In this document: in pieces, positions 1-58,265 of the stretch
How positions within the stretch are numbered: position 1 is the stretch's first letter
Layout of the letters: every line of letters starts with the position of its first letter
Virus record (IMG/VR): IMGVR_UViG_3300032307_000402
Coordinates: 1-60,721 of that record
DNA: 60,721 nucleotides
DNA from: a virus
Strand: one strand, 5' to 3'
Translations under genes and position numbers: made by a program
Notes under the pieces: generated by a model
Database searches by the model: none
What the model was told of the DNA's origin: nothing
The model's input: only the letters and a program-made list of their open reading frames with translations

Positions 1-828
1 TAGGGTCTTGATACGGGTCTTCTCGTCAGCGTTCTCACGCTTGGTGTCTAGGAATCTCAAGATGTCTGGGTGGTGAGCGTTTAGGTAAACCGCACCTGCA
101 CCCTGACGAGCACCAAGCTGGTTAGCGTAGGAGAATGCATCCTCTAGCATCTTCATTACTGGAATAATTCCAGAAGACTGGTTCTCAATCTTCTTGATTG
201 GTGCACCCTGCTCACGTACATTTGTTAAGTTTAGTCCTACACCACCACCACGCTTTGATAGCTGAAGAGATGAAGTAACTGCACGAGCAATAGACTCCAT
301 GTTATCCTCAACACGTAGCAGGAAGCAAGAGACAAACTCCCCACGCTGCTTCTTACCAGCGTTCAGGAAGGTTGGTGTGGCTGGCTGGAAGCGACCAGAA
401 ATTATTTCGTCTACTAAATCTTTAGCCAAATCAGCATTTCCCTTTGCTAGCATAAGACTATTCATTACGACACGATCCTCAAATCGCTCCAAGTATCGTT
501 CACCATCAAATGTCTTTAGGGCATAGCTTGTGTAAAACTTGTATGCACCAACAAATGTTGGGAACCTGAACTTATATGAATAGGTGTGCTTAAATAATTC
601 TTTAACAAATTCAAAGTCATACATATTAAGCACGTCTCTGTCATAGTAATCATTATCTACTAGATACTCTAGCTTTTCTTCTAGACTGTGAAAGAATACT
701 GTATTTTGGTTTACATGGTCAAGAAAATAAGCTTTGGCTGCTGCCTTGTCCTTGTCAAATTGAATCTTGCCATTTGCATCATATAGATTGAGCATGGCAT
801 TTAGCTCATGATAGCTGTAGTTATCCAT
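1..828 (-). CDS. nrdE: Ribonucleotide reductase class Ib large subunit NrdE, N-terminal part (cut by window edge)
   Basis: Reduces ribonucleoside diphosphates to deoxyribonucleotides, supplying dNTPs for phage replication. The 276 visible codons start at an ATG at 828 and stay open to base 1, so the C-terminal part, with the glycyl/cysteine radical-transfer residues, lies outside. Visible family signatures are [18 protein letters not shown] near residue 35, PTFLNAG and then SCFLL (the first active-site cysteine), [10 protein letters not shown], and the start of the catalytic barrel. The NQNTVFFHS motif and the adjacent nrdI point to class Ib (NrdEF). The start overlaps the end of nrdI by 8 nt, which implies translational coupling. 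The radical-carrying NrdF and thioredoxin-like NrdH are not in the window; nrdF would be expected just beyond the left edge. Confidence 0.96.
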
Positions 829-1222
829 ACAGTATTTCTAACCTCTCTTTTATTTTGTTAACATCCTCATCAGTGCCGAATATTTCTACCCTGGCAATGA
901 TGGGTACACCTGTTTTTGCTGAGATCATGTCTGCTGCTTTGCAGTAATGTTCTCCAAAATTTGTATTTCCAAATCCAACAACTCCTCTAAGAAGATCCCT
1001 GTTGTTAGGAATATTTAAAAACTTTCTTACCTGTTTTGGTATTGCAGGTGCTTCTGATCCACCACCATAGGTTGGAACAAATAACACATACTCTTTATCC
1101 ATATAAACTGGGTGTGCTGGATCCCACTGAATGGGGATACGAACAGCTCCAAGACCAAGCTTATCGACAAATCTATGAGTATTTCCAGAATAATTAGAAA
1201 AGTACACGATTTGTATGGACAT
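821..1222 (-). CDS. nrdI: NrdI flavodoxin-like activator of class Ib RNR
   Basis: A small FMN protein (133 aa, the usual length) that supplies the oxidant used to build the dimanganese-tyrosyl radical in NrdF. The N-terminal strand followed by the phosphate-binding loop [10 protein letters not shown] is the flavodoxin/NrdI signature; VPTYGGG and [12 protein letters not shown] are the other two conserved NrdI segments. It is followed directly by nrdE with an 8 nt overlap, the standard nrdIE order. A Shine-Dalgarno GGGGAG lies about 9 nt before the ATG. A terminator-like hairpin sits upstream, between this gene and the secreted-protein gene, so nrdIE may depend on read-through or on an unseen promoter. 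Confidence 0.96.
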
Positions 1223-1302: not shown

Positions 1303-2229
1303 TTACTTAGAGCTGATTAGCTTTACCTTTGCACGTGGGAACTTCTTGTTCCACTCTCTGGCAAGCTTGTTGTGTGCCTTACGATTATCAACTGCCTTAG
1401 TCTCAGCAGCTGCTAGCTTAGCCTCTAGCTCAGCAACCTTTGCATTTAGTGCTACTACCTGTCCTGCTAGATCTGCAACCACCACAGTTGAAATAACCTC
1501 AGTGTTTGGCTTTGCAAGACCTGCAACAGCAGATGCTGAAATAGTATTAGCAATTACAGTTGTTCCTGCAGTAGCAGGTGCAGTTAGAGTTGCCTCATAA
1601 CGCTTGTCAGTTGCATCATATGAGAATGAGCCAACTGTACCACGAATAACTGTTGAAGAAATTGTGGCATTGGTTACAGCATTACCAAATACGTCAGTAA
1701 CTGTTGCAGTTAGTTCTGCAGTTCCGCCAATGTTAGCAGTTGTAGGTGCAACTACAGCTAGGTTGTACGCTGAACCAGCAGTACCCTTAACAAAGTATGT
1801 AGTAGTTACGTTATCTGCTGTTACGGTAACGGTTCCAGTTGCTGTAGTAGTTGTGTAAACAAATACATCAGCAGTGGTTCCAGTTCCAGTTGCCACAGTT
1901 ACAGAAGAGGTTCCTGCATCTGCCTTGACAGTTGCTGATCCAGTGGTTAGTGCAGTGACCAGCCTTGCGTTGGTTGCAGACACTACCACGTTGCTTCCAG
2001 TAGCAGCATTGGTTACAGCAATCCTAAGAGCATCAGCGGAATCTACGCTGTTGTCTGCAGGGACTGGCAATGAAATTGCGGTTGCGACAGAAGTTCCAGC
2101 AGTTGCTGGTGCACTTCCTGCTACAGTTAGTGTTGTTGTTGCAGCATTAGCTGGGACTGCAAGAATTGCAGAACCAACTAGAGCCAATGCAGAGGCAATG
2201 GCAATTAGTGGCTTCTTTAACGAAGTCAT
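1303..2229 (-). CDS. Secreted Ig-like surface protein with C-terminal coiled coil
   Basis: A 308-aa protein with a textbook Sec signal peptide: MTSLKKP, then a hydrophobic core, then an AXA site (VPANA) near residue 29. The mature part is very rich in Ala, Thr and Val and looks like stacked beta (Ig-like) domains. One segment near residue 170, LTATVTDVFGNAVTNA, matches the bacterial Ig-like (Big/invasin) style. The last ~55 residues form a heptad coiled coil (VVALNAKVAELEAKLAAAE) and a basic tail. There is no LPXTG, lipobox or C-terminal membrane anchor. The composition, with GCN/ACN runs, differs from neighbouring phage genes and resembles surface proteins of planktonic actinobacteria, so host origin is inferred. 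RBS AAGGAG sits before the ATG. Possible roles are coating the infected cell, superinfection exclusion or mimicry; none is shown by sequence. Confidence 0.85.
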   Translation of the reverse strand: MTSLKKPLIAIASALALVGSAILAVPANAATTTLTVAGSAPATAGTSVATAISLPVPADNSVDSADALRIAVTNAATGSNVVVSATNARLVTALTTGSATVKADAGTSSVTVATGTGTTADVFVYTTTTATGTVTVTADNVTTTYFVKGTAGSAYNLAVVAPTTANIGGTAELTATVTDVFGNAVTNATISSTVIRGTVGSFSYDATDKRYEATLTAPATAGTTVIANTISASAVAGLAKPNTEVISTVVVADLAGQVVALNAKVAELEAKLAAAETKAVDNRKAHNKLAREWNKKFPRAKVKLISSK

Positions 2230-2250
2230 GTGTTTTTCTCCTTCTTTGAT

Positions 2251-4026
2251 TTAAATCAGATTAAATCTATCCAAATATTCACGTACATCATCTGGCATAG
2301 GTTTATATTGTATCACATCGTCTTTGTGCTTGTCAATAGCAGTTTTTGGCCTATCCTTAAAAGTATGAATCTCAACTTCAAGGTTTTGATCTCTTGGAGT
2401 ATGCGAGATAGCTCCAAAGATTGCTCCACAAACAGCATCTGCAAGGTCCTTAGACTTTTTACGTGGGTGATCCACCCTATTATTGCTCATAATCTTAAGC
2501 TCTGAAAGCTCATCAAATAGCAAGTCAATCATTGGCATTGCCAATCTTTCTTCATAAATTAGCATGGCCATATCTTCATAATGTTTCTTTGCAACTGATA
2601 CTGTTTCTGTTCTCAGACCTACTGCCTTTAGTTCATTCTGAATATCAAATGACTGCCAGCGGTCGAATGAGACCATGCCAATATCAAACCCTAGTCTTCT
2701 TAAGTTTTGAATCCACTGCTTAACTTCTGATAAGTTAACTGGACCCTCTACCTTTGGCTCCCACCAGGCGACAGCATCTACTACCACGACTGGTGCAATC
2801 TGCTGGTAGTCCTTAATAACTTGAATATTTACCCACTTATCTACGTGAGCAATTGCAACAGCACACTTGTCATGCTTCTGTGCAAGGTCAGCGTGGACAA
2901 AGTATTTCTTATTTGGATCTGGAACAAATGTTTCATCAAATCTTCTAATCTGATCTAATGGATTTCTTAGTGTCATTGCTGCACGAACCTTTTCAGTTTG
3001 CTTAAAGAATCTATCAGATGAGAATGTTGGAATACATGCAAACCTTTGCATAGCATCGCCCATGTCAGTAAAGAATGCGAGCTTAAAGTCATCAATTTTT
3101 CTTGTTGGGTTTACCACCCAGGTAGGACGCTTAAGAGCAAACATACCAGGATACTTATAGCTTACTACGGTATCTTCGTCCCACTCAATATCTAAGTAAT
3201 TTCCCTCTTGATCTTCTGGAAGATCTGGATTCATAACAAATCTATGACGCTTTGTAACAACTTCTTTTTCAGCAATTACTGATTCATACCTTGTGGAAAT
3301 AAAGTCTCCTGGAAAACGTGGGAATGACAGAAGGGCTACCTTGCCCAAGTCTGGGAAACGAGAGTCTACGGAAGCACGGAAGGCCTTATAGATGTTGTCT
3401 GCTGTCTTACCTTGGTCATTTCCTGTTCCAATTTCAGTAGCAAATCCAGAGATTTCATCAAGTACTGCCAGGATAAGGTTAAGCCCCTCGTGTGACTCTC
3501 TTTCCGAGTGTCCAGAATATACTGTGATAGATTTGTCAAACTCAATTGATTCAGCTTTGGCATAAAACTTTCCAGCGAACCATGGGGACTTCTCAATCTT
3601 AGTCTTAAAGCCTTTAAAGAATACGTTTTTCGCCTGCTGTGCGTTAATCGCAACGTTGATGATATCAATGGCATCACCACTAGGCTTACCAAAATATCGT
3701 GCAGGATCCTTAAGACATAGTAACTTGTATACAATGTAGCTACATGCAACCGTTGATGTAAAGTCTTTTCCACTGCCCTTTCCTAACTGAAGAATAACCT
3801 CATTCTTTGTATATTTTGCATAGTGCTTACGACCCTCTGACTCACCCATCAACTCTATAAGGTCTTCTATCTTGTAGATTTGGCTCATTGCCTCTACGAT
3901 GTCATATTGAACCTGTGATAATGGTGGCTGAGCAAGATAATCTTGTCCTTCAACAAAAGCCTTAACATCTACTGGGCGTTCTGCAAAGTTATCAGATTTT
4001 AATGCTTCTAAAAAATCATCAAACAT
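2251..4026 (-). CDS. terL: Terminase large subunit (TerL), ATPase-nuclease
   Basis: The DNA-packaging motor that threads the genome through the portal and cuts concatemers. At 591 aa it has both domains. The Walker A variant GKGSGKD is at residues 82-88, and Walker B LILAVLDE with the catalytic Glu is at 184-191. The RNase H-like nuclease begins at YFVHADLA (first Asp, near residue 377), has a second acidic site in MVSFDRWQS, and the third in KDLADAVCGA near residue 540. The start overlaps the putative small terminase by 8 nt. It lies far from the portal gene (39.9-41.5 kb), with the whole replication block between them, an unusual split of the packaging module. Confidence 0.95.
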   Translation of the reverse strand: MFDDFLEALKSDNFAERPVDVKAFVEGQDYLAQPPLSQVQYDIVEAMSQIYKIEDLIELMGESEGRKHYAKYTKNEVILQLGKGSGKDFTSTVACSYIVYKLLCLKDPARYFGKPSGDAIDIINVAINAQQAKNVFFKGFKTKIEKSPWFAGKFYAKAESIEFDKSITVYSGHSERESHEGLNLILAVLDEISGFATEIGTGNDQGKTADNIYKAFRASVDSRFPDLGKVALLSFPRFPGDFISTRYESVIAEKEVVTKRHRFVMNPDLPEDQEGNYLDIEWDEDTVVSYKYPGMFALKRPTWVVNPTRKIDDFKLAFFTDMGDAMQRFACIPTFSSDRFFKQTEKVRAAMTLRNPLDQIRRFDETFVPDPNKKYFVHADLAQKHDKCAVAIAHVDKWVNIQVIKDYQQIAPVVVVDAVAWWEPKVEGPVNLSEVKQWIQNLRRLGFDIGMVSFDRWQSFDIQNELKAVGLRTETVSVAKKHYEDMAMLIYEERLAMPMIDLLFDELSELKIMSNNRVDHPRKKSKDLADAVCGAIFGAISHTPRDQNLEVEIHTFKDRPKTAIDKHKDDVIQYKPMPDDVREYLDRFNLI

Positions 4027-4832: not shown

Positions 4833-5085
4833 TTCTCTCCTTAGCAATTTTTAAAAGAATTAGATAACCAATAAGATCATCAATATCGTTGTCTCCAGGA
4901 TAGTCAGTTCCTCTAGCAAATCTAGATAGCTTGTCATCAATCCTAACTAATATTTGCTCAATAGAGTTAGACTTAGAAAAGATACGAACTGGATCAAGTG
5001 CTGAATCTCCATAAGCATTATTTTTAGCTATTAGCATTTCTTTAATGCCATCACATACCTTAGAGATGTCTTTGACGGTCTGCAT
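4819..5085 (-). CDS. DUF1599-like (nucleotide-modification-associated domain 1) protein
   Basis: An 88-aa helical protein. The core AKNNAYGDSALDP near residue 21, followed by acidic residues (DDKLSRFARG and DDIDDLIGYL), is the pattern I associate with the DUF1599/NMAD1 family, small helical proteins found near nucleotide or base-modification genes in phages. The conserved Asn/Asp/Glu residues could bind a nucleotide and metal, somewhat like MazG-type folds. Its start codon is coupled (TAATG) to the end of the IMP dehydrogenase/GMP reductase-like gene, suggesting a joint role in purine metabolism. The family call is from memory of the motif; the biochemical role is not known. Confidence 0.65.
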   Translation of the reverse strand: MQTVKDISKVCDGIKEMLIAKNNAYGDSALDPVRIFSKSNSIEQILVRIDDKLSRFARGTDYPGDNDIDDLIGYLILLKIAKERNGKA

Positions 5086-6107
5086 TAGTTTGCCTTTCCG
5101 TGTGGCTTGCTTTCTGCCAATCCAGAATTGGTAATTTGGATGTATTGACTATTATAGGCAAAATCTCTTAGGTTGTCAACTCCAGTGTAGGACATAGCAC
5201 TTGCGATACCAGACTTAAAGTCATTGATAACGTGCTCTACTGGTCCCTTGCAAGCAACTGTCGTAGAAATACCCTCTACCCCAGAAACAGAGCCACGTCC
5301 GTCTTTTTGTGCTTCATAGGAAGCCATTCCACGGAATAGCTTACGATTACCATCAATAATCTCTCCAGGAGACTCATCAGTACCAGCAAGAGCACCACCT
5401 AGCATTACAGCATTAGCACCTGCAGCAAGAGCTTTAGCAGCATCACCAGAGTTTCTGATTCCACCGTCAGCAATGATTGCTGGACCATACTCATATCCAA
5501 ACTTATTTCTAATGTCAATAATTGATGTTAGAGTTGGAACTCCATGCCCACTAACAACCCTAGTGGTACAAGCAGACCCACCACCAATGCCAACACGTAC
5601 AGAATCCGTACCAGCATCTACTAGCCTAGCAAACCCATCTGCAGTTGCAACATTGCCAGACATGATGTGGATGTCGTTTCCAAATTCTTGTCGCAAAGCC
5701 TTTACTGCATTAATGGCATAGTCACTATGACCATTTGCAGTGTCTACTAGAATTGCATTGGCACCAGCATTTACTAATACCAGGGCATCATCTAGAAAAT
5801 TCCCAGTTGCTCCAATAGAAACAAAGGCAGTTGATCCAAGAGAAACAACCTCCTTTAGCATTCGTGCCTGTGCCTCCACTGGCATGTATCTGTGCAATAC
5901 GCCAAGGCCTCCAAGCTGTGCAATTTTTATAGCCATAGCTGTTTCACAAACAGTGTCCATTGGTGCAGCAATAATTGGTGTCTCTAAAACAATCTTGCCG
6001 ATATTACTTCTAAGACTAACGGTTTTACGACTTGTGATGCTTGAGTGTTGTGGAACTAGCAGAATATCATCAAATGCTAGACTTTCCTTAATGGAATATG
6101 GCTTCAT
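5085..6107 (-). CDS. IMP dehydrogenase/GMP reductase-family enzyme without CBS domains
   Basis: A 340-aa TIM-barrel purine enzyme. Visible landmarks are LAFDDILLVPQ near the N-terminus, TPIIAAPMDTV, the GNVAT strand near 151, the active-site loop GIGGGSACTTR with the catalytic Cys at 180, the phosphate-binding ADGGIRNSGD, and GMASYEAQ. The segment that holds two CBS domains in cellular IMPDH is absent: the barrel runs straight from VVSLGS into FVSIGA. Length and lack of CBS fit GMP reductase, but CBS-less IMPDH also exists. The Arg-Tyr flap dyad of IMPDH is not obvious, so direction (IMP to XMP, or GMP to IMP) is left open. Soluble, cytosolic. It would alter guanine nucleotide supply during infection. 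It sits between an HTH gene and the DUF1599-like gene. Confidence 0.9.
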   Translation of the reverse strand: MKPYSIKESLAFDDILLVPQHSSITSRKTVSLRSNIGKIVLETPIIAAPMDTVCETAMAIKIAQLGGLGVLHRYMPVEAQARMLKEVVSLGSTAFVSIGATGNFLDDALVLVNAGANAILVDTANGHSDYAINAVKALRQEFGNDIHIMSGNVATADGFARLVDAGTDSVRVGIGGGSACTTRVVSGHGVPTLTSIIDIRNKFGYEYGPAIIADGGIRNSGDAAKALAAGANAVMLGGALAGTDESPGEIIDGNRKLFRGMASYEAQKDGRGSVSGVEGISTTVACKGPVEHVINDFKSGIASAMSYTGVDNLRDFAYNSQYIQITNSGLAESKPHGKAN

Positions 6108-6267: not shown

Positions 6268-6834
6268 TTACTTTGTCAACCTTTCCCAATTATTGATTGC
6301 ATAATGACCAATTGCAATAGCATCAGCTACGTCATTATCAGTAACCTTCTTGTCATATTGAACACTTATATAGTGAATGGTTTTCTCTTTTCTGAGCTGT
6401 CTTTCATAATTTTTATACCATGCGTCAGACTTTCCAGGATTGTCTGATCTAACTTTAATCTTTTCTTCTGTAGAAAATTTCTTATTGCCTATATAGTTTT
6501 GCCATGTAATTGGTGCCACTGACTTTATTGTTTTTATTTTTGATGCCCCAAGCAAAGCACCCTGAACTAATGCTAGATCTGCTGCTGTTTTTGGACTGTT
6601 AATAAAAACAGTATGCTCAATAACCACAGCCTCTATATTGTATAAAGATACAAGAGATGCTGTTTTCTTGGCAGCATCTACAACCTTTTCATAGGTCGTG
6701 GTGCCAGTAAAATTAATCTTTCCAAATCTTACAAGATTTTTATCAGAATAAATTGCGAATGCCAAACTGTTAGTACTTGCATCAATCGCCATAATGTCTT
6801 TTGGCTGGTTAGAAAAGTTAGCTAGATTTACCAT
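6268..6834 (-). CDS. RuvC-like Holliday-junction resolvase
   Basis: A 188-aa endonuclease of the RNase H-like RuvC superfamily, expected to resolve four-way or branched DNA before packaging. Catalytic acids are visible in MAIDAST (near residue 18), AVVIEHTVF (near 72) and DNDVADAIAIGHY (near 165). The length fits phage RuvC-like proteins. The ATG at 6834 is preferred over an in-frame TTG two codons earlier. The start lies inside the end of the zinc-finger gene (17 nt overlap), so translation is coupled. It sits in the recombination part of the operon. Confidence 0.9.
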   Translation of the reverse strand: MVNLANFSNQPKDIMAIDASTNSLAFAIYSDKNLVRFGKINFTGTTTYEKVVDAAKKTASLVSLYNIEAVVIEHTVFINSPKTAADLALVQGALLGASKIKTIKSVAPITWQNYIGNKKFSTEEKIKVRSDNPGKSDAWYKNYERQLRKEKTIHYISVQYDKKVTDNDVADAIAIGHYAINNWERLTK

Positions 6835-7111
6835 TACCAAAGCCCTTAATCTCTTTTAAAGCCTTAACAACATCTTTTGGATTGATCAGGCATTGCTGAC
6901 ACAATTCGTCATCGTTATAAATAGAAAGCGATGAATCACAAGATTTACACTTTCTAGTTTTTCCGAGACGACGTTCACGTCTAATAATGGCATATCGCTG
7001 TGATATTTTTTCTTTAGTTGCTAAATCTCTACAACCAGAAGAACAGTATATCTGGTAAGATATGGCTGATTCAAATTGTGAATCACACCACTCACAATGC
7101 TTTGTTTTCAT
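6818..7111 (-). CDS. Double zinc-ribbon small protein
   Basis: A 97-aa protein with two cysteine clusters: CEWC at residues 6-9 paired with the two cysteines of YCSSGC, and CKSC paired with CQQC around residues 54-75. Each looks like a four-Cys zinc site. A basic stretch between them (RYAIIRRERRLGKTRK) suggests nucleic-acid binding. Overlaps of 20 nt with the Cas4-like nuclease gene upstream and 17 nt with the RuvC-like gene downstream tie it to the recombination/processing module. HNH-like residues are not apparent. Function otherwise unknown. Confidence 0.8.
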   Translation of the reverse strand: MKTKHCEWCDSQFESAISYQIYCSSGCRDLATKEKISQRYAIIRRERRLGKTRKCKSCDSSLSIYNDDELCQQCLINPKDVVKALKEIKGFGNGKSS

Positions 7112-52965: not shown

Positions 52966-52994
52966 TTGACCATTTTGACAAAAAGTGATATACT
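52966..52994 (+). promoter_or_regulatory. Plus-strand sigma70-type promoter of the lysis island
   Basis: TTGACC at 52966-52971, 17-bp spacer, TATACT at 52989-52994. Transcription would start near 53001. This is the only clear -35/-10 promoter in the window and drives the two hydrolase genes. Its -35 overlaps, on the other strand, the -35-like TGGTCA of the leftward promoter. Confidence 0.68.
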
Positions 52995-53004
52995 GGATTT
53001 AAAG

Positions 53005-53029
53005 AACACCCTTCAAAAAGGTGTTTTTT
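53005..53029 (+). terminator. Terminator-like hairpin in the leader of the lysis operon
   Basis: AACACC at 53005-53010 pairs with GGTGTT at 53020-53025 and is followed by TTTT up to 53029, giving a hairpin plus U run placed between the predicted transcription start and the ribosome site (TAGGAGGTG). It could attenuate expression or be an mRNA-stability element. Confidence 0.45.
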
Positions 53030-53046
53030 GCTTTAGGAGGTGCAAG

Positions 53047-53640
53047 ATGAATAAAAAACAAATTGCAATACTAGGAATCGCAGCTTTCTTGATGGTTAGC
53101 TGCACAACAAATGTGGCAGAAGGAGATGTTCGACATAACGCCCAAAGCGTTAATCAAACAAAACCCACACCCACTTTGTTAGAACAGGTAGTTAAATCAG
53201 AAGAGCAAACTGATTTAGATATGAGAGAATATGCTAAGAAATTAGCAAAAGAACAAAACATAAATGCTCTAAAGAATAGAGTAAAAGACCTTGATGAATA
53301 TCTTGGTAAGACACCTTATGTATTTAGCGGATCTACCCCCAGCGGTTGGGACTGCTCTGGTCTAGTTAGATGGTTCTATCTAGAGCTAGGTATTGATCTA
53401 TACCATTCCGCTACAAGACAGGCACAATCTGGTGTTCGTGTTAGCACCCCAGCAATCGGAGATATCGTAGCATTCAAGCATTTTGGTGCTACTAGATATT
53501 TTCATGTTGGAATATACATAGGAAATGATACAATAATTCATGCCAGAAAGCCTGGTACCGTGACTGAAATGGCAAAAATTTCAGACAGTTGGTTTGATAG
53601 AAGTCACGTTGAATTTATTAGAGTAATAGAAAATCAATGA
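53047..53640 (+). CDS. Secreted NlpC/P60 peptidoglycan endopeptidase with lipoprotein signal
   Basis: A 197-aa protein from the ATG at 53047, chosen because AGGAGG lies 7 nt upstream; an earlier in-frame ATG at 52966 is inside the promoter. The N-terminus is MNKKQIAILGIAAFLMVSC, a lipobox ending in Cys19. The C-terminal NlpC/P60 domain has WDCSGLV (nucleophile Cys near 103), RYFHVGIYIG (His near 153) and TIIHARKPG (third polar residue). It would cut the peptide cross-links of the wall from outside the membrane. First gene of a plus-strand pair; the second overlaps by 4 nt. Confidence 0.93.
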   Translation: MNKKQIAILGIAAFLMVSCTTNVAEGDVRHNAQSVNQTKPTPTLLEQVVKSEEQTDLDMREYAKKLAKEQNINALKNRVKDLDEYLGKTPYVFSGSTPSGWDCSGLVRWFYLELGIDLYHSATRQAQSGVRVSTPAIGDIVAFKHFGATRYFHVGIYIGNDTIIHARKPGTVTEMAKISDSWFDRSHVEFIRVIENQ

Positions 53641-54149
53641 ACACATATACCGTAATAGGTTCTGTTGGCATGGCTGTTACCCTGATGGCTTCTAGCCTGA
53701 TGGGTCAGCCTGTCCAGCATAACACACAAACACTTACCGTATCTTCTAGCCCAGAAGTCTCTTTTGAGCGTGGTAGCTATGAGATAGTTGAAATGAAGTA
53801 TGATCGCAAGACAATGCTGTCTGATAAAGAACTTATTTCAATTTTAAAACAAGCTGGATTTAAAGGTGATGCTTTGGCATATGCCTGGGCAATTGTAGTA
53901 AAAGAATCTACAAAAAGACCAATGTCTCTCAACAGAGCAAGCAATTGTTATGGACTATTTCAAATCAATATGACTGGATCAATGGGTCCAGATCGTAGAA
54001 AGAAGTATGGCCTTGATTCCAATGAAGATTTATACAATCCATTAATTAATGCTCAAATTGCATACAAAATGTCTAATGGTGGCAAGAATTGGTCTGCTTG
54101 GTCTACAAACAAAACAGCACTATCAATAATTAATGATTTTCCTGGGTAA
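53637..54149 (+). CDS. Secreted lysozyme-like transglycosylase
   Basis: A 170-aa protein overlapping the endopeptidase stop (ATGA). The N-terminus has a signal peptide (TVIGSVGMAVTLMASSLMGQ). The lysozyme-like fold is seen as AYAWAIVVKEST (catalytic Glu near residue 90), NCYGLFQINMTG, then DLYNPLINAQIAYKM and NWSAWST. It would cleave the glycan strands of peptidoglycan. Together with the NlpC/P60 enzyme it forms a two-cut lysis pair acting outside the membrane. The gene end overlaps the converging minus gene by 20 nt. Confidence 0.9.
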   Translation: MNTYTVIGSVGMAVTLMASSLMGQPVQHNTQTLTVSSSPEVSFERGSYEIVEMKYDRKTMLSDKELISILKQAGFKGDALAYAWAIVVKESTKRPMSLNRASNCYGLFQINMTGSMGPDRRKKYGLDSNEDLYNPLINAQIAYKMSNGGKNWSAWSTNKTALSIINDFPG

Positions 54150-54390
54150 ACTTGTCCCAATGACCAACTGGACATTCTGCATGTGCTAGCTTAACCTTTG
54201 CTTTCATAAAACAACCACATTTAGAACATTGAGTTGTTGGCAATAAAAATGGACATCCCTTGCATAGATCATATCTAGCTTGTGCAACTTCTTTTGGAAC
54301 ACGATCAGCATTTGGATTTATCATATCCCAAACACGAGTGTCACCAAGATTCTTTTTCCATTGCTGGTATGGGTTGAGCTGTTCTTCCAT
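54130..54390 (-). CDS. Cysteine-rich small zinc-binding protein
   Basis: An 86-aa protein with five or six conserved Cys: CKGCPF, CSKCGCFM and HAECPVGHW, the pattern of a small zinc-ribbon protein frequently found in tail-fibre clusters of marine phages. Role not known; perhaps a cofactor of fibre maturation. TAATG-coupled to the gene upstream and ending 20 nt inside the lysozyme gene. Confidence 0.75.
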   Translation of the reverse strand: MEEQLNPYQQWKKNLGDTRVWDMINPNADRVPKEVAQARYDLCKGCPFLLPTTQCSKCGCFMKAKVKLAHAECPVGHWDKFTQENH

Positions 54391-54670: not shown

Positions 54671-55936
54671 TTAGCATGCAACAAGAGTTGTGCTTGTTGA
54701 ATCGGTACAGTCAGAAAAATATGTTGTTACATACCTATATCTTCTTCTGTTTCCAAGGCTTCCAAGATTACATGGTCCAAAAGTTGTTACGCTTCCAGTG
54801 CAACATCTAGTTTCTGACTTATCGTAAAGATTACAGTTAAGGCTACTAACACAGTCTGCATAACGATTTTGACGAGTTCCTGGTCCATTTCCAGAACATG
54901 TTGGGCTCCAGCTACTCCAAGAACTGCAAAATGCTATGCAGCACTCAACTGTTTGCTGATACGTATATCTACTGCAATCTGTGTATATCTCTGTCACAGT
55001 CCTAGTCTTTGTTCCTGGAGCTAATCCAGTTGCTGTACAAGAGCTATAGGTTCCATAAAGAGTATCTCTGGGGCAAGCTGGAGCAGGTGGAGTATATGTA
55101 CAACAAACACGATCAACCACCGTACTTCCATCAGAATATGTCCTTGTTCTGGTTCGTATACCATTTCCATTAAAGTAACAATTTATACCAGATGAACTAA
55201 GTTCTGGATTACCAGATTGAGTACAATTTCCGAATGAGGTGTTTTCTAGTGTTGGTTCTGGTGGCGGAACACATCCAGTGGACACTGTTTTGTTTGGTGG
55301 TACGCATCCACTTGGATAAATATCTGTTCTATAGTAGCCCTGTCCAGAAGAACAATTAGTATTTGCACCCTGGTAGTTTTTACTGTCTACCACCGTAGTA
55401 CATGTAACACATGATGGATGAAAGTCATCTCTTCTTGGAGTCAATGGCTCATAATAACATTCAACTGCTGGCTGATCTTGAAGAGTTAGCGTCCATGTGT
55501 AGTTACTTGGATTTTCTACGTAAACCTTTCTTTTATCAATACGCTCATAAACTTTAAATAGTGGAGTTACTAGCGTGGTGCCTTCACAAGAAGCTGCCTC
55601 TGTTGTAGTGCTTGTTGTTGCTACGCAGTTGCCAGGAATAATTTGACCATCATCAGATGGCTTTGGTGGGTATGATGGTGGAACAAATGGTGCTTCATAA
55701 CGATATCTTGTTATAGAGACAGTAGTTTCATAGTCAACAAGGGTGTCTGGTAGGATATTTTGATTAGCAACTTTATCTTCTAATGAAGAGTCTGCAACTA
55801 CTGTATCAGAGAAACCGCCATAGATTAGACCTGCTGCTTCAATAGCTGACTGTGCAGCTCCTCTGGATAGACCAGAAAGGTTTGGTACCCTGACCATTCC
55901 TTTTGCAGATGCAAACCTACCTCCAACACCTAGCAT
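54671..55936 (-). CDS. PASTA-domain virion protein with cysteine-rich thrombospondin-like repeats
   Basis: A 421-aa protein. Residues ~15-80 form a PASTA domain (VRVPNLSGLSRGAAQSAIEA, then a typical N-x-x-P-D turn in ILPDTLVDY), the module that binds peptidoglycan or muropeptides in PknB-type kinases. After a Pro-rich linker (FVPPSYPPKPSDD), residues ~103-421 contain 26 cysteines by my count. The last ~190 residues look like four tandem units, each with 'G-x-C' or 'S-C', a basic Arg/Thr-rich strand (RTRTRTYSDG, KTRTVTEIYTDC, RQNRYADC, RRRYRYVTTYFSDC) and a CC or C end. Unit 3 has WSSWSPTCSGNGPGTR, the thrombospondin type-1 style. Wall-binding adhesin is the likely role. Confidence 0.8.
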   Translation of the reverse strand: MLGVGGRFASAKGMVRVPNLSGLSRGAAQSAIEAAGLIYGGFSDTVVADSSLEDKVANQNILPDTLVDYETTVSITRYRYEAPFVPPSYPPKPSDDGQIIPGNCVATTSTTTEAASCEGTTLVTPLFKVYERIDKRKVYVENPSNYTWTLTLQDQPAVECYYEPLTPRRDDFHPSCVTCTTVVDSKNYQGANTNCSSGQGYYRTDIYPSGCVPPNKTVSTGCVPPPEPTLENTSFGNCTQSGNPELSSSGINCYFNGNGIRTRTRTYSDGSTVVDRVCCTYTPPAPACPRDTLYGTYSSCTATGLAPGTKTRTVTEIYTDCSRYTYQQTVECCIAFCSSWSSWSPTCSGNGPGTRQNRYADCVSSLNCNLYDKSETRCCTGSVTTFGPCNLGSLGNRRRYRYVTTYFSDCTDSTSTTLVAC

Positions 55937-55943
55937 TTTTCTC

Positions 55944-56579
55944 CTATGCCGTTAGGTCACCCATTAAATACCAAGTATTTGCAGCTTTCTTTACTATAAT
56001 TGCTTGAGAATATCTTGATGCTGTTTTTCTATTTGAGTTTTTACTCAAAAGAGATACAGTGTTTGTGCCATCAGTAGCAGGGACAAATGTTACCTGACCA
56101 GTACCAGATTGAATTACAGCAATCTGTGTTCCAATTGTAAAATTAGTTACACTGTCTAATGGAATTGTTATGTTTATTGCAGAAGAAGAGTTAGCCTCTA
56201 TTGTTCTTCCCACATCCGTTAATCCAATAGTAAAACTGGCAAGCTTTTCTGATAGATATGCGTTATCTGTAAATACCCTCCAAGATCCAGCATAATAATA
56301 TTGTAATTCCATAACATTGTTAACAGGAACAAATGCGAAAGCACCATTTATTGGAGATGGAATCTTAGTAGATCTATCTGTAGCACTTGTAAATGCGTTT
56401 AATCCATTAGAGGCTACAACTGGAGCTGCAGAAGTGATTGAACCAGCTGCAGAAAATGTGTGGTCTCCGCTCCATGCAAAATCTGCTGAAGCATCTGTCA
56501 TACCAGCTACTGGATACCAGGTATCAGATGCCTCATCATAAACGTATGTTATCTTGCCTATATTGCTAATCGTTGCCAT
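55944..56579 (-). CDS. Tail-fibre protein with shared C-terminal module
   Basis: 211 aa from the ATG at 56579 (TAATG coupling; the ATG 21 nt upstream lies inside the preceding gene's end). The N-terminal part (ISNIGKITYVYDEASDTWYP) is a short strand-helix, the middle (GDHTFSAAGSITSAAPVVAS) a fibre shaft, and the C-terminal module (AINITIPLDSVTNFTIGTQI, then SQAIIVKKAANTWYLMGDL) belongs to the family seen at 47.5-48.5 and 50.1 kb. Confidence 0.72.
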   Translation of the reverse strand: MATISNIGKITYVYDEASDTWYPVAGMTDASADFAWSGDHTFSAAGSITSAAPVVASNGLNAFTSATDRSTKIPSPINGAFAFVPVNNVMELQYYYAGSWRVFTDNAYLSEKLASFTIGLTDVGRTIEANSSSAINITIPLDSVTNFTIGTQIAVIQSGTGQVTFVPATDGTNTVSLLSKNSNRKTASRYSQAIIVKKAANTWYLMGDLTA

Positions 56580-57043
56580 TATGAACCTATAGCCCTCCAT
56601 GTCGTAGTTGCTGCATCATAGACATACATTGTTAGTGGAGATGAGTTCTTGTCCACCCATAGCTGACCATCTACAAAAGTTCCTGTTGGTGTACTGTTTT
56701 GATAAATTGCAACAGTTCCAAGAAGCTGTGATGCTGAAGAATCTTCTTTGAGCCAAATATAACCATTTTGTGGATTAGATGGTTCTGTTTCTGACACTTC
56801 GGAACCAAGACCAAGGTCTTCTAATGCTGTTACATCATCTCTTAGTGACTTCAGGTGACCAGCAACAGAATTTGCAATAATTGCTGAGTTGTTGGATGGA
56901 AGGCTAGTTGCATTTCCATAATGGTAAAGCCTCAATGCTTCTTGGATATCAGCATCATCACTTAGCACTGGAATCAAAGTATTAAATAATTGATTAGTTG
57001 CCTCTGTTGCTGGATTATAGTTTGGATTAATATTTGTTGACAT
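56579..57043 (-). CDS. Fibre-base protein of the upstream fibre set
   Basis: 154 aa from the ATG at 57043 (AGGT upstream; an in-frame GTG at 57052 also exists). The N-terminal helix (NPATEATNQLFNTLIPVLSD, then IQEALRLYHYGNAT) could make a trimer; the C-terminal part ('NGYIWLKEDSSASQLLG', 'GQLWVDKNSS') is a beta-rich cap typical for fibre proteins. Coupled to the next fibre gene. Confidence 0.68.
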   Translation of the reverse strand: MSTNINPNYNPATEATNQLFNTLIPVLSDDADIQEALRLYHYGNATSLPSNNSAIIANSVAGHLKSLRDDVTALEDLGLGSEVSETEPSNPQNGYIWLKEDSSASQLLGTVAIYQNSTPTGTFVDGQLWVDKNSSPLTMYVYDAATTTWRAIGS

Positions 57044-57044
57044 G

Positions 57045-58265
57045 TTATGCACCTACCGATGGGAATGTTACCAATGAATGCTGTCCAGTTGCCCCTGGAC
57101 CAAAGTCTACTACCTTTGGCAAAGAGTGTGTTCCTGTTGATCCTGCATTAGTAAGGTCAACTGGGCTTACGCCATCTGCTGAAAGCATTATTGTGCTTGA
57201 GTTTACAACCACTACAAAGTATGGGAATCCATCTACTAGACCACCAATTGGGGTGTTGTTGTTATCCTGATAGATAACTACGTCTCCAGTTGTAAAGCCA
57301 TGAGAAGTAATGGAGATAGCGTTTGTTGAATAATTAACTGCTGTACTTGGAGTAAAGCTTTGACCAGATGTCAGCAACCTAATAGTATCTTCATCTTGAA
57401 CAACTACGGCATATTCAGATTCATTGTTTAATCCACTAATGCTGGTATTGCCATTATTCATATAGGCAACAATTTCACCAGTAATCAAACCATGATCTGT
57501 ATAGGTAATAGTATTAAGTGTTGAGTTAACAGCAGATCCATCAAAGTCTAGAATGTCTGTGGACCTTCCGCCAATTGTAGAGATAAAGTGAACAATTCTA
57601 TATCCATATAGTGGGGTATTTGCAGCAGGTGCAATTATTGTTGCCCCCATGAATGCAGATAGTGTCTGAACCCCAAATGGAAACACTTGAGGAGTAGCAT
57701 ATGTGCCAGTTATTGGATTAAAAACTTCAACAGTGTGTGTTGGACTAATCTTACCTAGTTGTAGAGATGTCGAAAGTTCTTCATCTGCTGGTCCCAAAAT
57801 GTTATATTGAATATTGAAGTCCTTGACACCAAGGTTTCCAAGATCTACTGTTTCTAGAAACGCAGATAGTGGAAAATATAGACCCTTAATAATTACTGGA
57901 TTACCAGAAAAGTTAACAACTGTGTGAGCAATACCATTAATAAACTTAACTGCAGGGTTTACGATAACAGCATTTGGAATAAGTCGTAGAATTTTGCTCC
58001 ACTGTAGAACAGCGTTTACATTCTCATACTTATATAGATATAGGTAATCTGGGCTGGATGGACTAAGGTTAATAAACAAATCATTTACAATTGGCTCATC
58101 ATTAGCAAATACGGTTGATTGAATAGCAGGGTCTGTTGGGGCACCTGGACCAGTAAAGATCTGGCTGCCACGAATACCTGGAGAGCCAAGATCTAAGTCA
58201 ACCTTGATTGATGACGGTCCCCCAAGAACTGTTAAACTACTTGATGCAGCTACTACGTCTACCAA
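57045..58265 (-). CDS. Large beta-rich fibre protein with tandem repeats
   Basis: A 406-aa protein. Residues ~265-390 hold two copies of a repeat, LITGEIVAYMNNGNTSISGL and then FTTGDVVIYQDNNNTPIGGL, each followed by a 'YxVVVxxxxTIxL' strand. The N-terminal part has a Pro-Ser-rich pattern (SPGIRGSQIFTGPGAPTDPA) typical of the attachment end of marine phage fibres. The start is TTG at 58265 with AGGAG. Structural role in a tail fibre is likely. Confidence 0.72.
   Translation of the reverse strand: MVDVVAASSSLTVLGGPSSIKVDLDLGSPGIRGSQIFTGPGAPTDPAIQSTVFANDEPIVNDLFINLSPSSPDYLYLYKYENVNAVLQWSKILRLIPNAVIVNPAVKFINGIAHTVVNFSGNPVIIKGLYFPLSAFLETVDLGNLGVKDFNIQYNILGPADEELSTSLQLGKISPTHTVEVFNPITGTYATPQVFPFGVQTLSAFMGATIIAPAANTPLYGYRIVHFISTIGGRSTDILDFDGSAVNSTLNTITYTDHGLITGEIVAYMNNGNTSISGLNNESEYAVVVQDEDTIRLLTSGQSFTPSTAVNYSTNAISITSHGFTTGDVVIYQDNNNTPIGGLVDGFPYFVVVVNSSTIMLSADGVSPVDLTNAGSTGTHSLPKVVDFGPGATGQHSLVTFPSVGA

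Follow-up and report, generated by a model that had tools for sequence, protein, structure and literature searches.

The window analysed here, a stretch of virus DNA of 60,721 nucleotides, contains a gene for which an unusual combination had been predicted: a PASTA domain joined to a dense array of Cys-rich units resembling thrombospondin type-1 repeats (TSRs), in what was taken for a phage fibre protein. Such a product raises the question of which of its parts contacts the host and of how so many cysteines are accommodated in a protein made in the cytosol. The best explanation, to which a probability of roughly two in three is assigned, is that a tailed phage, a relative of the Stanwilliamsviridae, uses it as an adhesin in its tail fibre or tail tip, with a constant PASTA head and an exchangeable disulfide tip that recognises the host.

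The virus, the gene and its product

The 60.7-kb DNA encodes a portal protein, a capsid protease, a major head-type protein, a minor tail protein, a 2307-residue product at the tape-measure position, DnaB, a DnaE-type polymerase and RecA. Its head-tail gene order is similar to that of the Stanwilliamsviridae BillNye, Wakanda and Annadreamy. Sequence identity to Streptomyces phages of this family is 57 % for the DNA polymerase and approximately 42 % for the capsid protease, so the host is likely to be an actinobacterium, as far as these two sequences can tell. Two scans of genome contigs for relatives of the protein under study found none, so no host could be read from them. The window further contains nucleotide metabolism genes, one of the IMP dehydrogenase/GMP reductase type (5085-6107, minus strand) and one for NrdI (821-1222, minus strand), as well as an ORF for 97 residues (6818-7111, minus strand), 8 of them Cys, that matches nothing in Pfam.

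The ORF of interest starts with ATG, a few bases 5' of which stands AGGAG. The gene and the segments of its product are as follows.

54671-55936, minus strand: complete PASTA-headed, Cys-rich ORF, 421 residues, 26 Cys
55895-55936, minus strand: N-terminal 14-residue motif MLGVGGRFASAKGM, conserved in the family; pLDDT about 45 at residues 1-10
55709-55894, minus strand: PASTA domain, residues 15-76, by Pfam, PDB profile and fold
55247-55708, minus strand: residues 77-230, modelled with low confidence: a linker rich in Pro (77-103), then 8 Cys in the part that follows
55091-55246, minus strand: TSR-like unit 1, residues 231-282, 4 Cys; fold without a confident model
54929-55090, minus strand: TSR-like unit 2, residues 283-336, 5 Cys
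54797-54928, minus strand: TSR-like unit 3, residues 337-380, 6 Cys, with WSSWSPTC and GPGTR
54674-54796, minus strand: TSR-like unit 4, residues 381-421, 3 Cys

The N-terminal PASTA domain was confirmed, since residues 15-76 matched PF03793 with E = 3e-6 and 27.5 bits, above the Pfam cut-off of 23.2, and each of the 24 aligned family members (see below) matched PASTA as well. A PDB profile search also placed the head among PASTA domains. In the AF2 model it adopts the PASTA fold, one helix packed on three strands, with pLDDT of 82-90, a Foldseek probability of 1.00 to the PASTA domains of PknB and PBPs, and a TMt of 0.75 to 5e0y. The leader MLGVGGRFASAKGM that precedes it, in which M1, G13 and M14 are invariant across the family, is a candidate virion-docking peptide.

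The predicted 26 Cys and about four tandem units were likewise found, the units lying within residues 231-421. Cysteines are absent from residues 1-103, number 8 in residues 104-230 and 18 in residues 231-421; only 1.6 would be expected in a protein of this length given the 0.39 % Cys of the other window proteins (P about 1e-22).

A family with a constant head and exchanged tips

Searches with tblastn using the whole protein, its N-terminus, the Cys region or a family-like N-terminus found no relative among 50,697 phage records; the lone match had E = 7 and was dismissed as chance. No clear relative was found in PHROGs either. Relatives were reached through environmental contigs sharing the capsid protease, 17 of 50 of which carried a related ORF; a degenerate N-terminal motif next retrieved 80 loci from IMG/VR. 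The family is present in more than 80 environmental contigs, and its proteins range from 145 to 748 residues. The segments that follow PASTA comprise TSR-like units, Cys-rich parts between VTP/PTP runs, Fn3/Ig-like modules, Phe-Pro runs, low-complexity linkers and a Hint/intein-like end. The TSR-like unit profile gave a signal in 9 of 49 records, and only in PASTA-headed ORFs as judged by position and frame length. A search of the literature on PASTA together with tail fibres, or on thrombospondin repeats together with phages, returned nothing relevant. The 421-residue protein is a TSR-like, disulfide-type variant of a real and unusual phage protein family, of which no earlier description was found.

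Several sister proteins differ visibly from the one in the window. Eleven carry a Hint/intein-like domain with HNK at or near the C-terminus, among them those at L179:3001-4194, L143:2989-4395, L170:2884-4173, L189:3001-4266, L206:2980-4488 and L157:2980-3927. Their Intein_splicing matches lie below the cut-off (best E = 1.2e-6, in L179) and the Hint-like domains often start with an N-terminal Cys of the type CISGDTFI; judging from these motifs, self-processing of a phage fibre protein is possible. Another C-terminal domain, with the motif NCEPYDNFFT, occurs in L165, L178, L180, L187 and L188 and seems to be a degenerate Hint-like form devoid of the HN motif. Simple-repeat linkers (VTPVTP, PTPTPT, TTTTTT, FFPPFFPPF, FTPFGFTP) were noted in L173:2989-4221, L182:2989-4857 and L185:3001-4017, where slippage or recombination could alter protein length and swap modules. 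In the relative contig L115 a protein of 459 residues (1336-2715, minus strand) has as many as four PASTA stretches and few Cys.

The genes surrounding the PASTA gene in the window, with the number of the 84 loci in which a counterpart was found, are the following.

57045-58265, minus strand: fibre/baseplate-like protein (phrog_2885, phrog_38233), conserved neighbour, 74 of 84 loci
56579-57052, minus strand: conserved fibre-cassette gene, 77 of 84 loci
55944-56600, minus strand: upstream gene whose product resembles minor tail and tail fibre proteins in its C-terminal half (phrog_8780, phrog_16053), 81 of 84 loci
54130-54390, minus strand: downstream neighbour, small CxxC protein (phrog_13558, DUF6171-like), 73 of 84 loci
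53637-54149, plus strand: SLT_3 lysozyme-like lysin, 49 of 84 loci
52966-53640, plus strand: NlpC/P60 lysin, 31 of 84 loci

The two lysin genes overlap; the NlpC/P60 product starts with a lipobox-like leader, IAAFLMVSC, and the SLT_3 product has a signal-like leader.

In about 70-80 of the 84 loci the genes follow one another as phrog_1084 protein, fibre proteins, PASTA gene and DUF6171-like protein, and an opposite-strand lysin lies downstream in up to 49 loci, several loci ending before that point. The assignment as a phage fibre gene is supported by this synteny, from which the place of the product in the particle is inferred. An intracellular, lysis-related or secreted phage protein merely adjoining the fibre genes has also to be considered, as the gene adjoins lysins and PASTA is found in wall-associated enzymes. 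However, no catalytic domain was found in the 421-residue protein with Pfam and no signal peptide was evident by eye, the gene runs in the same direction as the fibre genes and against the lysins, and the modular exchange seen in the family is typical of adhesins. A non-virion role is therefore regarded as improbable.

This exchange is sharply delimited. The N-terminus and PASTA are constant across the family, and close relatives exchange everything downstream; several pairs show 95-99 % identity over residues 1-82 and only 40-50 % over the remainder. At the DNA level L140 and L154 share 92.4 % identity up to position 3278, which is the end of the PASTA codons in a gene starting at 3001; a replaced segment of approximately 330-440 bases follows, and identity of 87.7 % resumes from 3609 onward. 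Since PASTA and the preceding 14 residues are constant and the rest is swapped, host specificity more likely resides in the Cys-rich tip. The distal part would then recognise the host, and PASTA may be an anchor, a stalk or a generic wall-binding unit.

The roles could also be reversed: PASTA would grip the wall, as first proposed, by binding the muropeptides of an actinobacterium, and a passive stalk or spacer would be formed by the Cys-rich part. The head has a true PASTA fold near the PASTA domains of PknB, the core genes are closest to phages of the Gram-positive Streptomyces, and a universal ligand would conserve PASTA as well. Nevertheless, a constant PASTA with a swapped tip is the usual pattern where the variable end sets specificity, some PASTA domains do not bind peptidoglycan, and no PASTA protein was found in the three cultured Stanwilliamsviridae genomes named above. 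Wall gripping by PASTA with an inert tip is accordingly thought unlikely, though less so than a role outside the virion.

Fold and chemistry of the cysteine-rich units

AlphaFold was run with ten family sequences. Residues 290-421 reached pLDDT of 60-92, residues 85-283 gave no confident model, and units 2-4 were modelled as successive strand pairs with fair to good confidence. The tip alone was modelled in the same way with a mean pLDDT of 84. The models thus give strand pairs in each unit, where a TSR has an elongated topology of three strands. In Foldseek comparisons of the tip with the PDB, properdin chains ranked first with a low TM-score and E of 0.025, and the first nine matches (E 0.025-0.95) include pleiotrophin and TSR2-3 of thrombospondin-1. 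With the full-length model properdin came second, behind PknB PASTA. Searching BFVD by structure yielded nothing stronger than weak matches to viral proteins that are long and rich in beta structure.

Profile comparisons point the same way. A profile of ten family units, searched against the PDB at E <= 10, matched eight distinct sequences, all eight of them TSR proteins (E 0.044-9.7), including C8 beta, F-spondin, UNC5D, TRAP and MIC2, the last of which we take to carry TSRs. Individually the TSR matches are weak, the best PDB profile E being 0.044 and Foldseek E 0.01-0.03, with none at E <= 0.001. Aligned with hhalign to eight real TSRs, the same ten-unit profile, made of hand-picked and hence selected units, gave a probability of 93 and a score of 32.2, which was reached by none of 400 column shuffles (maximum 20.5), half of them with the Cys columns fixed in place. 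An unselected unit alignment scored above 300 of 300 shuffles, but with an hhalign probability of only 29 %. Pfam TSP_1 (PF00090) gave no match in the 421-residue protein and stayed below the cut-off in the relatives L178 and L164 (E = 0.034-0.04); phmmer with a single sequence and hmmsearch with a three-unit alignment found no match in the PDB, where only the single-unit profile gave any.

At the motif level, WSSWSPTC and a G-x-x-x-R strand had been predicted for one unit, and both occur in unit 3 (CSSWSSWSPTC...GPGTR). The full WSSWSxTC is confined to this unit, the other units having an R-rich strand. The units contain 3-6 Cys each, compared with the six Cys and three disulfides of a TSR, and since this number varies the disulfide pattern is expected to differ from that of a textbook TSR. 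The predicted likeness to TSRs is thus supported at the level of modelled fold and of motif, by PDB profile and Foldseek, and does not extend to established TSR membership; because Pfam TSP_1 was not reached, the units are called TSR-like, a term meant to imply no common ancestry with TSRs. Convergence on short beta-hairpins rich in W, R and Cys, independent of eukaryotic TSRs, would account for the sub-threshold scores, the short units (approximately 37-45 residues compared with 50-60) and the variable Cys pattern. On the other side stand the exclusively TSR nature of the eight PDB matches and the profile alignment above every shuffle, yet convergence can give such specificity. The balance between convergence and descent appears about even, and convergence would be compatible with an adhesin tip.

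The original prediction had asked whether so many cysteines reflect metal binding or late oxidation, and of the two it is late oxidation that the data favour. Leaving the Hint domain aside, 54 of 56 distinct members have an even number of Cys, compared with 12 of 18 control ORFs with at least 4 Cys from the same loci (Fisher P = 0.002, an exact value weakened by the shared ancestry of sequences that are not fully independent), and even counts hold in all tip types. In TSR-type members CxxC is depleted (7 seen, 15.6 expected) and CxC is absent, and there are only 0-2 His per protein. Even Cys numbers, depletion of CxxC and the near absence of His favour late-formed disulfides over zinc. A zinc-ribbon or zinc-finger array stable in the reducing cytosol would suit a protein made there with many Cys; the neighbouring product of 54130-54390 has the look of a zinc protein with CxxC, and even Cys numbers by themselves also fit metal clusters. 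Paired CxxC or Cys/His knuckles, however, were not found, and the model and profile matches point to TSR proteins; on the spacing of the Cys, zinc ribbons were rejected as very improbable. As no signal peptide is evident, oxidation would most simply take place at or after lysis.

Proposed function and relation to known systems

In the preferred reading as an adhesin, the N-terminus would dock the protein on the virion, PASTA would form an unchanging stalk or make a generic contact with the wall, and recognition of the host surface would fall to the exchangeable Cys-rich tip. The tip would be made reduced in the cytosol, its disulfides forming at or after lysis, and oxidation could turn it into a thin, tough adhesive rod.

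A broader and rather speculative extension is that widespread uncultured phages display interchangeable tips resembling extracellular matrix (TSR-like, Fn3, Cys-knit or Hint-processed) on a constant PASTA head, that the TSR-like ones share ancestry with the TSRs of eukaryotes, and that their disulfides form only after virion exit, so that virions would have to be oxidised to mature into infectious particles. Disulfide-stabilised tips exchanged on a constant PASTA head would make up a host-recognition architecture for which no description was found, one tip type resembling a fold known from adhesion proteins of animals and parasites. Two questions are made testable by the family: the maturation of virion proteins by oxidation after lysis, and the relation of TSR-like modules of prokaryotic viruses to eukaryotic ones. 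The tips could also serve to read host range from metagenomes.

With the PASTA domains of PknB-type kinases and PBPs (PF03793) the phage head shares the fold (5e12, 5e0y, 3py9) and a Pfam score over the cut-off. In contrast to them, it is single, N-terminal and preceded by a conserved 14-residue leader, in a structural-type protein devoid of kinase and transpeptidase domains.

Features of TSRs (PF00090; properdin, TSP-1, C8 beta, MIC2/TRAP) that recur among the units are the WSxWS motif, seen here in unit 3, a strand of the G-x-x-x-R-x-R type, successive strand pairs in the models and a Cys-rich tandem array, and TSRs are their top structural neighbours. They differ in scoring below the Pfam cut-off, in their shorter length and variable Cys number, in the CC often found at their end and in their prokaryotic-virus setting.

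Known phage tail fibres and receptor-binding proteins differ from the PASTA family in that the latter is absent from PHROGs and from the cultured-phage set searched. Both combine modular distal exchange with a constant proximal part and occupy the same gene place; peculiar to the PASTA family are the PASTA domain as the constant head, the disulfide-type tip and the sister tips with Hint/intein-like ends.
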